Source of the DNA: a virus
Virus record (IMG/VR): IMGVR_UViG_3300027985_001329
Location: 1 to 21,159 of that record
Direction: 5' to 3' (one strand)
DNA: 21,159 nucleotides
Positions 2,910 through 21,159 of the stretch are shown in pieces (within the stretch, counting starts at the first letter, position 1; each line of letters starts with the position of its first letter). Under the pieces are notes generated by a model that did not search any database, had not been told where the DNA came from, and saw nothing but the letters and a program-made list of their open reading frames with translations. A program made the position numbers and the translations under genes.

Positions 2910-3485
2910 ATGAGAAGCATATCAAAAGAACAGCTTTATAAAATTTTAGAGGATCATAAATTGTGGCTTAATAACCAAGAAGGAGGAAAAAGAGCAGATC
3001 TCAGTGACACAAATCTCAGGTACGCAGATCTCAGTGGCACAGATCTCAGGTACGCAGATCTCAGGTACGCAGATCTCAGGGATGCAGATCTCAGTGACAC
3101 AAATCTCAGGGATGCAGATCTCAGGTACGCAGATCTCAGGGATGCAGATCTCAGGTACGCAGATCTCAGGGATGCAGATCTCATGGATGCAGATCTCAGT
3201 GGCACAAATCTCATGGGTGCAGATCTCAGTGGCACAAATCTCATGGGTGCAGATCTCAGGGATGCAGATATTGATTACTCGTGTCTAACTTTAAGCTGTA
3301 AAACTCTGAAAATAGGAAAAACAGACAAGCGTCAATGTGTACAGATTGCGTATCATCTTTTGCGTTTTATGGATGCTTGCGACGATCCAGAAGTTTTGAA
3401 AATAAGAAACATTAAAAAACTGATTGATTTTACGAATACTTTTCATAGAGTCGAAGAGTGCGGAAAGATTGAAAAGAAAGGATAA
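2910..3485 (+). CDS. Pentapeptide-repeat protein
   Basis: A 191-residue protein. A short N-terminal segment (EQLYKILEDHKLWLNNQEGGKR) leads into about 19 consecutive A-D/N-L-x-x repeats (residues about 29-123) that fold into a right-handed square beta-helix. A helical C-terminal region of about 65 residues follows. Similar 'HklWL...GGkrAdL' proteins occur in phages and bacteria. Some pentapeptide proteins mimic DNA and bind gyrase, but most, including this type, have no proven role. The repeat unit is nearly identical at the DNA level, suggesting recent expansion. The ribosome site is GAAAGGA. The surrounding replication genes make a DNA-mimic role worth considering, but it is not shown. Confidence 0.9.
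   Translation: MRSISKEQLYKILEDHKLWLNNQEGGKRADLSDTNLRYADLSGTDLRYADLRYADLRDADLSDTNLRDADLRYADLRDADLRYADLRDADLMDADLSGTNLMGADLSGTNLMGADLRDADIDYSCLTLSCKTLKIGKTDKRQCVQIAYHLLRFMDACDDPEVLKIRNIKKLIDFTNTFHRVEECGKIEKKG
2994..3278 (+). repeat. 15-bp tandem repeat array (18 full units plus one degenerate)
   Basis: Units of 15 bp run in phase from 2994 to 3263, with a decayed copy to 3278. Most begin GCAGATCTCAG and vary in the last four bases (GTAC, GGAT, TGGC, TGAC). The hexamer AGATCT occurs in 14 of the 18 units. The array encodes the pentapeptide beta-helix. Its low divergence explains why other frames also stay open here. Confidence 0.95.
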
Positions 3486-9025: not shown

Positions 9026-9115
9026 ATGCCGGATAATTTTGTTTTAGATGCGTTGTTTTTTAGTGTGTCTTTTTGTATTTACAGTGTTTTGAAATTTAGG
9101 AGTAGAAAAAGATGA
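9026..9115 (+). CDS. 29-aa membrane peptide
   Basis: ATG 9026 has GGGG (9016-9019) six bases upstream and overlaps the next gene as ATGA (9112-9115). The product (29 residues) has an acidic start (MPDNFVLD), a hydrophobic stretch ALFFSVSFCIYSVL and a basic end KFRSRKR. This is a plausible short membrane anchor with its C-terminus inside. It may simply be a coupling ORF feeding ribosomes to the next gene. Confidence 0.45.
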   Translation: MPDNFVLDALFFSVSFCIYSVLKFRSRKR

Positions 9116-10419
9116 ATTTTTTTAAGTTTTTATTTTTTACTGTTTTTTTGTTTTTTGGTTTTTCGGCTGGTGAAAAAACAAATCCTGTTTTTGTTACAGA
9201 TGTCGACCCTTCTGGTAATCAAAAGTTTTTCGATTCTTTTGGGAGGGATAGATCAGCTCAACCATTTCAGGTTGGAGCAAATTTTTTTACATATTCATTG
9301 GAACCAGAAGATTTCGGTACATCCGTTTCAGGCTCAGGAGTAATTACACATGATACTGTTTCCGGTACAGCTGTTATAAAATCTGGTTTAACATCTGGAA
9401 CAGCTAAATTCAGATCACATCAATATCATTTATACCAGCCAGACAAAGCGCAAGAGATTGATATTTCTATTGCCCCAGGAATCCCGACAACCGGAAACAC
9501 AAAGATTTGGGGATACAAAGACGACAATGACGGCCTTTATTTTAAATTAAACACTTCTGGATTTTATGCATGCGCTCTTTCAAGCACTTCTGGATCTGCT
9601 GTCGAAACCTGTGTTGAATCTGCTAATTTTAACGGCACCGATTATGATTCCAAAACGCTTGTCAGAGATTACGATTTTTCAAAATCTGGAATCTTTTCGA
9701 TTCGGTTTCAATGGCTTGGTTCCGGTGTGGCAAATTTTTATCTGGTAAATCGCAAAGGATCTGCCGCGCTTCTCCATACATATCAAAATCCTGGCACTTT
9801 ATCTGAACCTTACATGAAACGCGGAGCCCTTCCTTTATCATTTGAACAATCAAGTTCAGACTCTTCCGTTGCGACTGATCAAATGAAGGTTATTTGTTGT
9901 TCCTGTATATCAAATGGTGGTGAAGATCCGGCAGTTCGAACTTTTGTTTCGATGCTTCCGAATGTTGGGATAACAACAAATGCGCTTGAGCACCATGTTG
10001 TTTCTTTCAGGCTTAAAGCATTATTCAAGGATCAGGTGAATACAACAACAGTTTTCCCACAAGAATTGAGGATTCCGGTTTTTGGTGGCTCTGTTCGTTA
10101 CAGAGTTTATCAAGATTGTACTGTTACTGGTGGATCGTGGGTTGATATAAATTCATCTCTTTCAGCGGCTGAATATACAACGTCTGGAACGATTTCAAAT
10201 TGCTCAAAACTTGTCGAAGGTGGAACAATCTTTGGGAGTACTTCAGGTACTCCAGTAAGTCAATTGATAACCGCAAATCAAGGCTCAGTCGGATTTAGGC
10301 AATTCAAAATTGTTCGGAAGGTTTTTGATGGCGAGTCAGCATTCAGCGTTACAGTGCAGCGATATGATACTGATAACGCAATGTATGACGTAATTATGAG
10401 GTGGGGAGAGTCAAGATAA
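9112..10419 (+). CDS. Secreted or virion beta-rich protein with phage jelly-roll-like domain
   Basis: A 435-residue protein. Residues 1-20 (MNFFKFLFFTVFLFFGFSAG) form a signal peptide; cleavage near FSAG/EK is plausible. Residues about 100-235 match a pattern I know from many phage structural proteins: YLYQP-like start, G-Y-x-D-D-N-D-G-L-Y-F (134-144), then FQWLGSGVANF (about 198-208), HTYQNP and a final ALPLSFE. These are beta-sandwich (lectin or jelly-roll-like) domains. The C-terminal part has cysteines CCSC. TAGGAG precedes the ATG. It sits just before the late terminator and terminase genes. Whether it is a virion protein (fibre or spike) or a host-surface protein is unclear, because signal peptides are unusual in virion proteins. 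Confidence 0.6.
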   Translation: MNFFKFLFFTVFLFFGFSAGEKTNPVFVTDVDPSGNQKFFDSFGRDRSAQPFQVGANFFTYSLEPEDFGTSVSGSGVITHDTVSGTAVIKSGLTSGTAKFRSHQYHLYQPDKAQEIDISIAPGIPTTGNTKIWGYKDDNDGLYFKLNTSGFYACALSSTSGSAVETCVESANFNGTDYDSKTLVRDYDFSKSGIFSIRFQWLGSGVANFYLVNRKGSAALLHTYQNPGTLSEPYMKRGALPLSFEQSSSDSSVATDQMKVICCSCISNGGEDPAVRTFVSMLPNVGITTNALEHHVVSFRLKALFKDQVNTTTVFPQELRIPVFGGSVRYRVYQDCTVTGGSWVDINSSLSAAEYTTSGTISNCSKLVEGGTIFGSTSGTPVSQLITANQGSVGFRQFKIVRKVFDGESAFSVTVQRYDTDNAMYDVIMRWGESR

Positions 10420-16936: not shown

Positions 16937-17425
16937 ATGAAAAATATTATTCTTTTAGTTTTCGTTGCCCTCTTCTCTGTTTTTTTGCAAGCAGAGAACA
17001 GGGCAGATTCGCTAACTTCTGCAAGCCCAGAATTAAGGCAATATCTTTCATCTATTGAAAAAGGAATGCAAGGGGACGCGCTTTGGAGAAGCTATTCTTC
17101 AATTGAGCTTTCAACAGCAACAATCAATGCGACGACTACTACTTTATATTTCCCGGTTCAGCTTGTCGATTCGAGTAATAATTTAATGCAATGGTTTAAC
17201 GATACAGTTACACCATTTTCTGTTGCTCAAAGTATTTCAACTTCTGTCGGTCAGGCGGTGCTGCCTGCAAGCTCAAAGGCGTTTTACGCTGGTTCTGCTG
17301 GCCTATCTGTTACAATTACTGGTACTTGGGCCATTGGTGACTATATCACTGTTACAATCCCGGCACTTTCTGATGGGTGTCTTGACGCTGTTACAGCAAC
17401 ACAAATTTTGACATTTACGGAGTAG
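16937..17425 (+). CDS. Signal-peptide-bearing protein next to the capsid gene
   Basis: A 162-residue protein with AAGGAG before ATG 16937. Residues 1-19 (MKNIILLVFVALFSVFLQA) form a clear signal peptide; cleavage at LQA/EN is plausible. The mature part is rich in serine and threonine and beta-prone (TTTTLYFPVQLVDSSNNL; SVTITGTWAIGDYITVTIPALSDG), as in decoration or fibre domains. The gene position directly after the major capsid is where decoration proteins are normally coded. An exported protein there is odd. Options are a virion protein with a hydrophobic N-terminus, or a surface protein acting on the host. No family was recognised. Confidence 0.6.
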   Translation: MKNIILLVFVALFSVFLQAENRADSLTSASPELRQYLSSIEKGMQGDALWRSYSSIELSTATINATTTTLYFPVQLVDSSNNLMQWFNDTVTPFSVAQSISTSVGQAVLPASSKAFYAGSAGLSVTITGTWAIGDYITVTIPALSDGCLDAVTATQILTFTE

Positions 17426-19419: not shown

Positions 19420-20844
19420 ATGAGTACAGTTAATGCAATTGCTAAAGGATCTGGTGTAGAAATTGCCTATATCAGACAAACAGATAAAGATACAATCCCG
19501 TCCTCTGGGACAGTCTATAAAGTAAAATGCGCAGGAGAATCTTTTGATTCAATGCTTCCGAATGAGTTTGATTCCGATGTTTCGTCTGACGGTCAAAAAA
19601 TCGGAACAGTTTCAGGTCTTAGAAGCACAACTGGCGCTCTTTCATCTCTTCAAGATGAATTCGGCGCATATGATGATTTTGACCTTTCTGTTTTGAGGAA
19701 ATCCGCTTTTACAACAGATACCTACACTGATACAGTTGCAACAATGGTCGGTTCTGGTGACGGAACAACAATGGTTATTACCGGATCAGGTTCCACTGAT
19801 TTTTCTACTCTTATCGTTGGTGGGCCGGTTAAACTTGCTGGAACAACTGTAAGTGCAAACGCAGTTGGAATTTTTCAGGTAGTTGCTGCGGCTGCTGGTG
19901 CTTTCACAGTCGGAAAAACAAATAAAGATCAGGACTTTTCTTCTATTTCTGAATCATCTATCGCGCTTACAGTAACCCAAAGATACGCAAAGAACGGTTC
20001 TGATGAATCTGTTATGTTTGTTGTCGAGAAAAGAATCAATCAGGTTAATACGTCGAACGGGTTCAAAAGAGTTCTTGGAATTCAGGGATCATCTTCTACT
20101 GTAAATATCGCTGCTGGTGGAGCTGTTACAAGAGATTTCAGCTTCATTGGCACCGGGAATGGTGTCGCTTCAGATGGAATTGTAGGTCCAAATGGGTGGC
20201 TCGTAGATGGGGCACAGACCGCAGGAGATACGACAATTCTTATCAAGTCAGGGGCAACAGATCCAGCCGCAGGAGACATTTGTTTTATCGAAGGAGATAC
20301 GACAAACACGAAATATACTGTTGTGTCTTTTGCGACTTCTACAATGACAATCACACCAGCTATCAGGGCAAATATCGGAGATAATGATAAAATCTTTTTT
20401 TATAGACCTGCTACAAATGGAGGTGTTGATCAGAAAGTTGAAAACAACCTAGGGTACACGGTTATTGATGGATCTTATCTTTGCGTTACAAGCGGAAATA
20501 TCAATGTAAACAATAACCTTTCTGCGATCAATTGCGTGGGTGACGAAAATCCGACCGAACTTGTCCCTGGAGATAGGCTTGTTTCTGGATCTATTGTTGT
20601 AAACTTTTCCACAAATGTTCAACCTATTTTGACAAAAATTGCAGCGAGAACCAGGTTTCCAATTTCCATTTTCTGCTCTGATATTCTTGGAAATGTAAAA
20701 TGTTTTCAGGTTCCGGAGGCTGTAGGAGATGAGGAAATGGTCAAGCGTGCAGACGCAAGCGTATTGCAGCAAAATATTCCGTTTAAGGCAGAAAAAAGCT
20801 CTACATACGGGACAAATTACATCTTTCACAGTTTGGCAGTATAA
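19420..20844 (+). CDS. Major tail tube protein with inserted beta domains
   Basis: A 474-residue protein with GAGGAG before its ATG. The N-terminus (AIAKGSGVEIAYIRQTDKDTIPSSG) and middle stretches (SLQDEFGAYDDFDLSVLRKS) fit long tail-tube proteins. Two additional beta-rich segments, about residues 105-170 (DGTTMVITGSGSTDF ... GGPVKLAG ... GAFTVGK) and 262-330 (QTAGDTTILIKSGATDPAAG ... KYTVVSFATSTMTITPA), look like small inserted domains of the same type. That explains the length of nearly twice a basic tube subunit. Such inserts may decorate the outside of the tube. The next gene is separated by the pseudoknot region. Confidence 0.8.
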   Translation: MSTVNAIAKGSGVEIAYIRQTDKDTIPSSGTVYKVKCAGESFDSMLPNEFDSDVSSDGQKIGTVSGLRSTTGALSSLQDEFGAYDDFDLSVLRKSAFTTDTYTDTVATMVGSGDGTTMVITGSGSTDFSTLIVGGPVKLAGTTVSANAVGIFQVVAAAAGAFTVGKTNKDQDFSSISESSIALTVTQRYAKNGSDESVMFVVEKRINQVNTSNGFKRVLGIQGSSSTVNIAAGGAVTRDFSFIGTGNGVASDGIVGPNGWLVDGAQTAGDTTILIKSGATDPAAGDICFIEGDTTNTKYTVVSFATSTMTITPAIRANIGDNDKIFFYRPATNGGVDQKVENNLGYTVIDGSYLCVTSGNINVNNNLSAINCVGDENPTELVPGDRLVSGSIVVNFSTNVQPILTKIAARTRFPISIFCSDILGNVKCFQVPEAVGDEEMVKRADASVLQQNIPFKAEKSSTYGTNYIFHSLAV

Positions 20845-20858
20845 ACATATTTAATCTG

Positions 20859-20908
20859 ATTTGGTCTGGTGCGTACCGTTCAGCGCGCCGGGCCAAATAC
20901 TTGAACGG
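20859..20908 (+). promoter_or_regulatory. H-type RNA pseudoknot overlapping the next gene's ribosome site
   Basis: ATTTGGTCTGGTGCG (20859-20873) pairs with CGCGCCGGGCCAAAT (20884-20898) over 15 bp without interruption, three of them G-U, so the structure is RNA. The 10-nt loop TACCGTTCAG contains CCGTTCA (20876-20882), a perfect match to TGAACGG (20902-20908), three bases after the stem. The second stem covers the start of GGAG (20907-20910), the ribosome site for the gene at 20916. It lies in a G/C-rich island between the tail tube and that gene. Confidence 0.65.
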
Positions 20909-20915
20909 AGATAAA

Positions 20916-21159
20916 ATGGATTTTAAAAAAAGTATTCTTGAAAAAAAATGGTTCAAACTTTCTGAAACCCTAAAAGATGAAAAAGAAAAAGGGGAAATTG
21001 AACTTGTAAATCATCTTACTTCTTCTGATTTTATTGATGAAAGAAGTAAAATTGATGAAAATCTTTCTGATGAAGAAAAAAGAAAAATAATTTCAGAGCT
21101 TGTTGCAAAACATCTAATCGCAGGATGGAAATTTTTTAGCTACGGAGAGAAAGATATTC
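20916..21159 (+). CDS. Tail-cassette protein, probably chaperone-like (partial, cut by window end)
   Basis: An open frame from ATG 20916 to the window edge, with ACGGAG as ribosome site. About 81 residues are visible: a lysine/glutamate-rich start (SETLKDEKEKGEIELVNHL), then SDEEKRKIISELVAKHLIAGWKFF. Position after the tail tube fits a tail-assembly chaperone, which often shows charged helical sequence. The 3' end is missing, so a frameshift cannot be checked. Translation may be controlled by the pseudoknot immediately upstream. Confidence 0.6.
   Translation, partial: MDFKKSILEKKWFKLSETLKDEKEKGEIELVNHLTSSDFIDERSKIDENLSDEEKRKIISELVAKHLIAGWKFFSYGEKDI

Follow-up and report, generated by a model that had tools for sequence, protein, structure and literature searches.

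A putative H-type pseudoknot over the ribosome site of a phage tail assembly chaperone gene

In the gap between the tail tube gene and the gene that follows it in IMG/VR record IMGVR_UViG_3300027985_001329, we found a putative cis-acting H-type pseudoknot element that would restrict translation initiation of the tail assembly chaperone and uncouple it from translation of the tail tube, a reading to which we give a probability of roughly 55%. The window, that is, the stretch of DNA analysed, is the whole record of 21,159 bases. The element is made of a strong hairpin (S1) whose apical loop is complementary to the chaperone ribosome site, this second pairing being referred to as S2 (Table 1). 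Four kinds of direct observation bear on it: the sequence, the statistics of its folding, the identities of the flanking genes and the recurrence of the same layout in other lineages.

The tail tube-chaperone gap and its flanking genes

The tail tube stop (20844) is separated from the next start (ATG 20916) by 71 nt, which is an exception among the neighbouring genes, as those from 17649 onward abut or overlap. The 50 nt of the element contain 58% G+C, compared with 25-42% per 500-base window. Both the G/C-rich island and the unusual gap among packed phage genes that the original prediction had pointed out were thus confirmed. The tail tube assignment comes from a Pfam match to PF18906 at 28.5 bits, with a cut-off of 27, and the protein is about 50% identical to tail tubes found in the same position in L002-L022. 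For the downstream gene, the residues present in the window match a homologue in L014/L013 (tblastn E 4e-8, 36% over 82 columns). In relatives, the open reading frame of this homologue ends in A AAA AAG TAA and the -1 frame continues to the tape measure gene, with the slip located at 14745-14760 in L014 and at equivalent places in L003 and L006. L014, L003 and L006 therefore combine the two features of a tail assembly chaperone of the G/GT type, namely a place between the tail tube and tape measure genes and a -1 slip. Since its homologues show the slip and the -1 frame leading to the tape measure gene, the gene at 20916 was identified as a tail assembly chaperone, in agreement with its earlier description as chaperone-like.

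Additionally, the element is present as a single copy in the record, and no repeat or mobile element was found. Among viral contigs and phages, protein and DNA queries taken from the window only returned no close homologue of either the tail tube or the chaperone, and no close capsid or adaptor homologues were detected in 84,980 bacterial and archaeal genomes.

The window contains other features of its own. Two proteins with signal-peptide-like N termini (16937-17425 and 9112-10419) are encoded beside or inside the capsid cassette, one of them sitting between the capsid protein and the head-tail adaptor, and neither has a convincing homologue in related contigs. There is also a pentapeptide-repeat protein (2910-3485), with long open frames on both strands as a result of its repeat, an ORF with the in-frame tandem repeat VNHERNASETQ (1151-1969) and, in the early region, a PAPS-reductase-domain protein (PF01507; 6668-7579).

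Table 1. Positions of the element, its parts and the flanking genes in the window
Feature	Position	Strand	Description or basis
Tail tube gene	19420..20844	+	474 aa; TAA 20842-20844; PF18906 Phage_tube_2
UCUG	20855..20858	+	Alternative 4-bp partner of CGGA 20906-20909; RNAfold, helix energy
S1 5' arm, ATTTGGTCTGGTGCG	20859..20873	+	Bottom four pairs A-U, then 11 mostly G-C/G-U; sequence, RNAfold
S1 apical loop, TACCGTTCAG	20874..20883	+	Sequence
S2 5' strand, CCGTTCA (anti-ribosome-site segment)	20876..20882	+	Exact complement of 20902-20908
S1 3' arm, CGCGCCGGGCCAAAT	20884..20898	+	Sequence, RNAfold
Linker L3, AAATACT	20895..20901	+	If the bottom four A-U pairs open; otherwise 3 nt, 20899-20901
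S2 3' strand, TGAACGG	20902..20908	+	Joint shuffle test
Ribosome site, GGAG	20907..20910	+	First two bases within S2
Tail assembly chaperone gene	20916..21159	+	Truncated by window end; 81 aa present

Statistics, geometry and energy of the fold

The two arms of S1 form 15 pairs, three of them G-U, and a 16th can be gained (U-G, 20874/20883). S1 begins 14 nt past the tail tube stop and ends 17 nt ahead of the chaperone start, and TGAACGG occurs once on the + strand of the window. The loop is complementary to sequence 3' of its own stem, which is the H-type architecture, and the stem, the 10-nt loop, the CCGTTCA/TGAACGG complementarity and the overlap with GGAG all matched the original prediction letter for letter.

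RNAfold analysis of the 91-nt stretch 20840-20930 gave a z value of -5.7, reached by none of 200 shuffles. We also used a joint score, which adds the best hairpin to the pairing of its loop with downstream sequence near the start and is compared with dinucleotide shuffles. The joint S1+S2 score was -43.4, with no match in 3000 dinucleotide shuffles of the gap, and the element was the strongest of the 34 gene starts in the window, the other 33 scoring -24.7 or weaker. Most of this score comes from S1. When the hairpin was held fixed and a 7-base loop match was sought in the 17-21 nt up to the start, the loop-to-ribosome-site match had a p value of about 0.004 (Watson-Crick pairs only) or about 0.019 (G-U allowed), and of about 0.012 when scored by energy with dinucleotide shuffling. 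Given these values for S2 alone and the dominance of S1, the window by itself proves the hairpin and only suggests the pseudoknot; its loop pairing is modestly unlikely by chance, and it is the recurrence across relatives that carries the pseudoknot case. The earlier claim of a selected RNA structure, not chance, is accordingly backed by the joint score and by recurrence and weakened by the values for S2 alone, and the G-U pairs that had been read as a sign of selection are not, by themselves, evidence of it.

In this regard, we consider it very unlikely that the site arose by chance or is a DNA-level palindrome (a recombination or protein site) without any RNA role. The p values of the S2 match alone and the finding of the element in one record, with no repeat copy, would agree with such an origin, but the joint score lies beyond that of every shuffle and relatives share the layout at the homologous place. 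An intrinsic terminator, or an attenuator of transcription, behind the tail tube gene would have precedents in the true terminators that relatives carry at the same spot, but S1 is not followed by a T run on either strand and a terminator scan of 20840-20920 was empty, which makes this explanation extremely improbable. No promoter was found at the site.

The geometry of docking was analyzed with an A-form model for the linker crossing (groove widths of 10 and 17 A). According to this model, a linker crossing the 15-bp S1 needs about 8 nt where the window has 3, so that the full 15-bp S1 and S2 would be mutually incompatible; the tight geometry of the 3-nt linker, originally presented as a mark of selected structure, thus counts against a fully formed pseudoknot. 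Opening of the bottom four A-U pairs would leave an 11-bp S1 and the 7-nt linker, just enough for the 6-7 nt needed. In RcXuper, DSS3P8, Pan1, MD18 and RpAliso, S1 has about 11-13 bp with an L3 of 6-8 nt (approximate values, from alignments). Since 11 bp and 7 nt fit and these relatives are alike, the functional form of S1 may be an 11-bp stem, that is, one helical turn. Rough energies were -27 kcal/mol for the docked form, -24 for the bare hairpin and -31.6 for the best nested fold; docked and undocked forms that lie within a few kcal/mol are compatible with dynamic docking, and no proof of it. The best non-pseudoknotted fold of 20840-20930 also has the ribosome site partly paired, by UCUG, and when coding sequence is added to the fold other weak pairing supplants UCUG at this place.

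These values also bear on the explanation that the S1 hairpin alone matters, as a 3'-end guard, as a ribosome or nuclease barrier behind the tail tube message or as an RNase III site, and that the match between loop and ribosome site is incidental. S1 is far stabler than S2 (-28.5 vs -12.8 kcal/mol in stacks), the 3-nt linker disfavours docking with the stem intact, and almost all relatives with a gap have a stable hairpin behind the tail tube stop. We regard this explanation as possible, if doubtful, in view of the comparison with related phages.

Recurrence of the layout in related phages

The capsid-protein search returned 13 contigs and the tail-tube search 12, forming one clade, with 42% and 50% identity to the window, respectively. 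Eight contigs of this sister clade include the whole gap, of which there are six different versions. In its letters the gap is unrelated to that of the window, but the layout, a hairpin plus an S2 over the ribosome site, is shared. S1 in the sister clade is AGCTAGC/GCTAGCT, starts 16 nt past the tail tube stop and ends about 19 nt ahead of the start, and S2 joins the loop GTGTCTCC with GGAGACAC, the latter containing the ribosome site GGAG. Shuffle p values were 0.0003-0.0007 in the two versions tested. L002 and L003 have one added base in each arm of S1, the two being mutually paired (AGACTAGCC/GGTTAGTCT), and L006 retains S1 through substitutions that yield G-C and G-U pairs; covariation in the clade is thin because few positions vary. 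A further candidate, L038, obtained in a pattern search with the S2 of the sister clade, was dismissed as a chance match.

Farther relatives were retrieved on the basis of their terminases, and searching those records with PF18906 yielded six further tail tubes. The uncultivated L087 (G002) has a 145-nt gap with a hairpin whose loop, TGCCCTC, is complementary to GAGGGCA, the chaperone ribosome site (shuffle p 0.0003). Cultured Roseobacter, Rhodobacter, Caulobacter, Brevundimonas and Pseudanabaena phages show a GTCGGG/CCCGAC pairing. It takes the form GTCGGGTC/GACCCGAC in R5C and R26L and GTCGGG/CCCGAC in Pan1, while DSS3P8, RcXuper, RpAliso, MD18, CcrSC and CcrBL9 have the loop (T)TGTCGGGG and CCCGACGA, CCCGATAA or CCCCGACA between hairpin and start. 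All these phages have GTCGGG in the loop and CCCGAC or CCCGAT near the start, with joint p values of 0.0003-0.06. The downstream match is shorter in Bajun, and Bambus has the hairpin and loop with a ribosome-site pairing that is not significant.

With the hairpin fixed, p values of the loop match ranged from 0.01 to 0.22 in single lineages, and combining the seven lineages gave a Fisher p of 9e-5, whereas seven comparison hairpins from the same site gave 0.999; this value can serve as orientation but not as a rigorous test, because the lineages were picked after the motif had been seen. In DSS3P8, RcXuper, RpAliso and MD18, S2 cells are 100% paired, two changes being one-sided, and S1 has two pairs altered on both sides. 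When the partners were slid by 1-3 columns, the paired cells of these four phages fell from 91% to 37-54%. The number of double changes in the four-sequence alignment was equalled in 60 of 500 shuffles, and a formal covariation claim is unwarranted because four sequences are too few. Conservation by compensation is seen as the same pairing in different letters across lineages, where formal covariation has low power. The comparison between the tail tube and chaperone genes of related phages, proposed together with the original prediction, has partly borne it out, and because the hairpin and the loop-to-ribosome-site pairing recur in different sequence at a homologous site, we consider the structure a real RNA-level design. 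A role of the S1 hairpin alone is opposed by the loop match, which at least three lineages show at the ribosome site in unrelated letters and others show near that site, and by four Roseobacter-type phages in which S1 varies with compensation but loop and partner are preserved.

The GTCGGG loop has a complement upstream, CCCGAC(A), and in the majority of cases another downstream, CCCGAC/CCCGAT at the ribosome site. Loci of this kind are found in Roseobacter, Rhodobacter, Caulobacter, Brevundimonas and Pseudanabaena phages (L112 2356-2512, L113 2362-2505, L114 2362-2513, L118 1812-1951, L119 2722-3052, L115 2722-3050, L116 2728-2931 and L104 2692-2771). In four Roseobacter-type phages the element lies inside a larger conserved domain with an ATCTTGG..CCGAGAT hairpin, and the dual-partner domain had no Rfam match. 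In the branch of Roseobacter, Caulobacter and Brevundimonas phages, rivalry for the loop between the upstream CCCGACA and the CCCGAC of the ribosome site would make a two-state switch possible. In addition, gaps of 140-176 nt ahead of the tail tube gene in L112-L116, L119 and L120 hold TTGACATT, and in several of them TAGTGT-like boxes come next, as would be expected of a separate tail tube promoter.

The element is not indispensable, since several relatives are without it. Tail tube and chaperone genes overlap in TAATG in L083-L085, and two other tail tubes have gaps of 9 and 15 nt; overlapping or near-abutting starts and no element were recorded for L083-L086, L088, QDWS359, PaMx74, LP.2 and Ab18. 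Ordinary terminators occupy the site in DC31, P26059A, Pm86, Mannheimia 1152AP2 and EC151, which show no loop match; a hairpin is thus present even there, which favours S1 acting alone. Weaker alternatives were scored in P26059A, EC151, DMCA and DC31, and none beats shuffles at the ribosome site. In Limnohabitans phage DC31 (L096 3701-3845), the terminator comes right after the tail tube and is followed by a TTGATT-17-TATAAT promoter before the chaperone. The absence of both complementary segments from homologues had been named as grounds for refutation, and here the outcome was mixed: gap-keeping relatives often retain the design, and others have an overlap or a terminator. Relatives thus reach a similar end by a terminator or dispense with the element through an overlapping start.

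Known RNA elements and proposed function

No Rfam 15 covariance model matched the window at its gathering score, within 20700-21050 no riboswitch family was matched with E values allowed up to 10, and the search of relatives returned only weak sub-threshold microRNA matches located elsewhere. The covariance check proposed earlier thus placed neither the window nor its relatives in any family at a meaningful score. Ligand sensing, also proposed, found nothing in its favour, and a ligand riboswitch, preQ1-I included, was dropped as a candidate given the lack of both an Rfam match and any hint of a ligand. A full-text literature search, with subscription journals mostly outside its reach, did not turn up any description of a pseudoknot located between the genes for tail tube and chaperone.

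As an architecture, the element resembles preQ1-I riboswitches with partial Shine-Dalgarno occlusion. These are H-type and hold part of the Shine-Dalgarno in the S2 3' strand; only its first two bases are buried in preQ1 class I of the Tte type (PMC11625349), and the first two would be buried here too. The riboswitch differs, however, in its much smaller stems, its conserved ligand pocket and its queuosine genes. Among viral pseudoknots that autoregulate translation, a 2010 review names only the T4-type gene 32 (PMC3014915). Our element is like those of T4, T2 and RB69 gene 32 in being a pseudoknot of phage mRNA that precedes a start codon, with limitation of translation as its proposed role. 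The T4 pseudoknot lies 67 nt upstream of the start without overlapping the ribosome site, and gp32 binds it and then coats an A+U-rich stretch (PMC3014915), whereas here S2 itself would enter GGAG, beside a tail gene. The likeness to T4 gene 32 drawn by the original prediction therefore does not extend to its type, with a pseudoknot well upstream and an A+U-rich spacer. Lambda G/GT has the same gene position and the -1 slip seen in relatives of the window, but its frameshift control is at the end of G, whereas the element here would act before the gene start.

At the rpsO operator, the ribosome is entrapped with S15 bound. This E. coli translational operator includes a pseudoknot (PMC3014915), which is its likeness to our element, and differs in that the gene is unrelated and no protein is known for the element here. 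It is improbable, in our opinion, that the element is an operator for a stabilising protein (tail tube, chaperone or other late protein) with feedback as in T4 gene 32 or rpsO/S15. The layout is like that of known operators, repression of the helper when the product is in excess would make sense and T4 gene 32 offers a phage precedent (PMC3014915), but the window, the sister clade and L087 share no conserved letters, some of which a shared protein site would normally keep.

We propose instead that S1 folds upon transcription and that, with S1 starting 14 nt past the stop codon, a ribosome ending the tail tube would probably leave it unmelted. The loop would dock onto TGAACGG at the chaperone ribosome site, the bottom four A-U pairs of S1 opening to lengthen the linker sufficiently. 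Docking would hide the first half of the Shine-Dalgarno, so that the chaperone would be made at a rate lower than, and independent of, that of the abundant tail tube; in the cell, such docking and the lowered initiation would presumably require no protein or ligand. The common denominator across lineages is a strong hairpin just past the tail tube stop or before the chaperone start, with a loop that covers or abuts the ribosome site, and its simplest reading would be a brake on chaperone initiation together with uncoupling from tail tube translation. As relatives keep the design in different letters, the element probably sets the amount of a tail-assembly helper, and a role in setting the tube:chaperone ratio is plausible. 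Other possibilities are protein feedback and, in the branch where CCCGAC occurs twice, a two-state switch.

More broadly, and tentatively, at somewhat less than even odds, the element may belong to a widespread class of phage RNAs, defined by location and layout rather than sequence, that would occupy the tail tube-chaperone gap in phages of many hosts and tune chaperone dosage, with the GTCGGG branch maybe acting as a two-state switch. The tail tube, chaperone and tape measure have to be produced in widely differing quantities. Control in this cassette is known from the -1 frameshift within the chaperone gene, to which an RNA at the chaperone start would add a second control point. Comparable elements in cultured phages (e.g. 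RcXuper, DSS3P8, R5C, CcrSC) make this idea directly testable.
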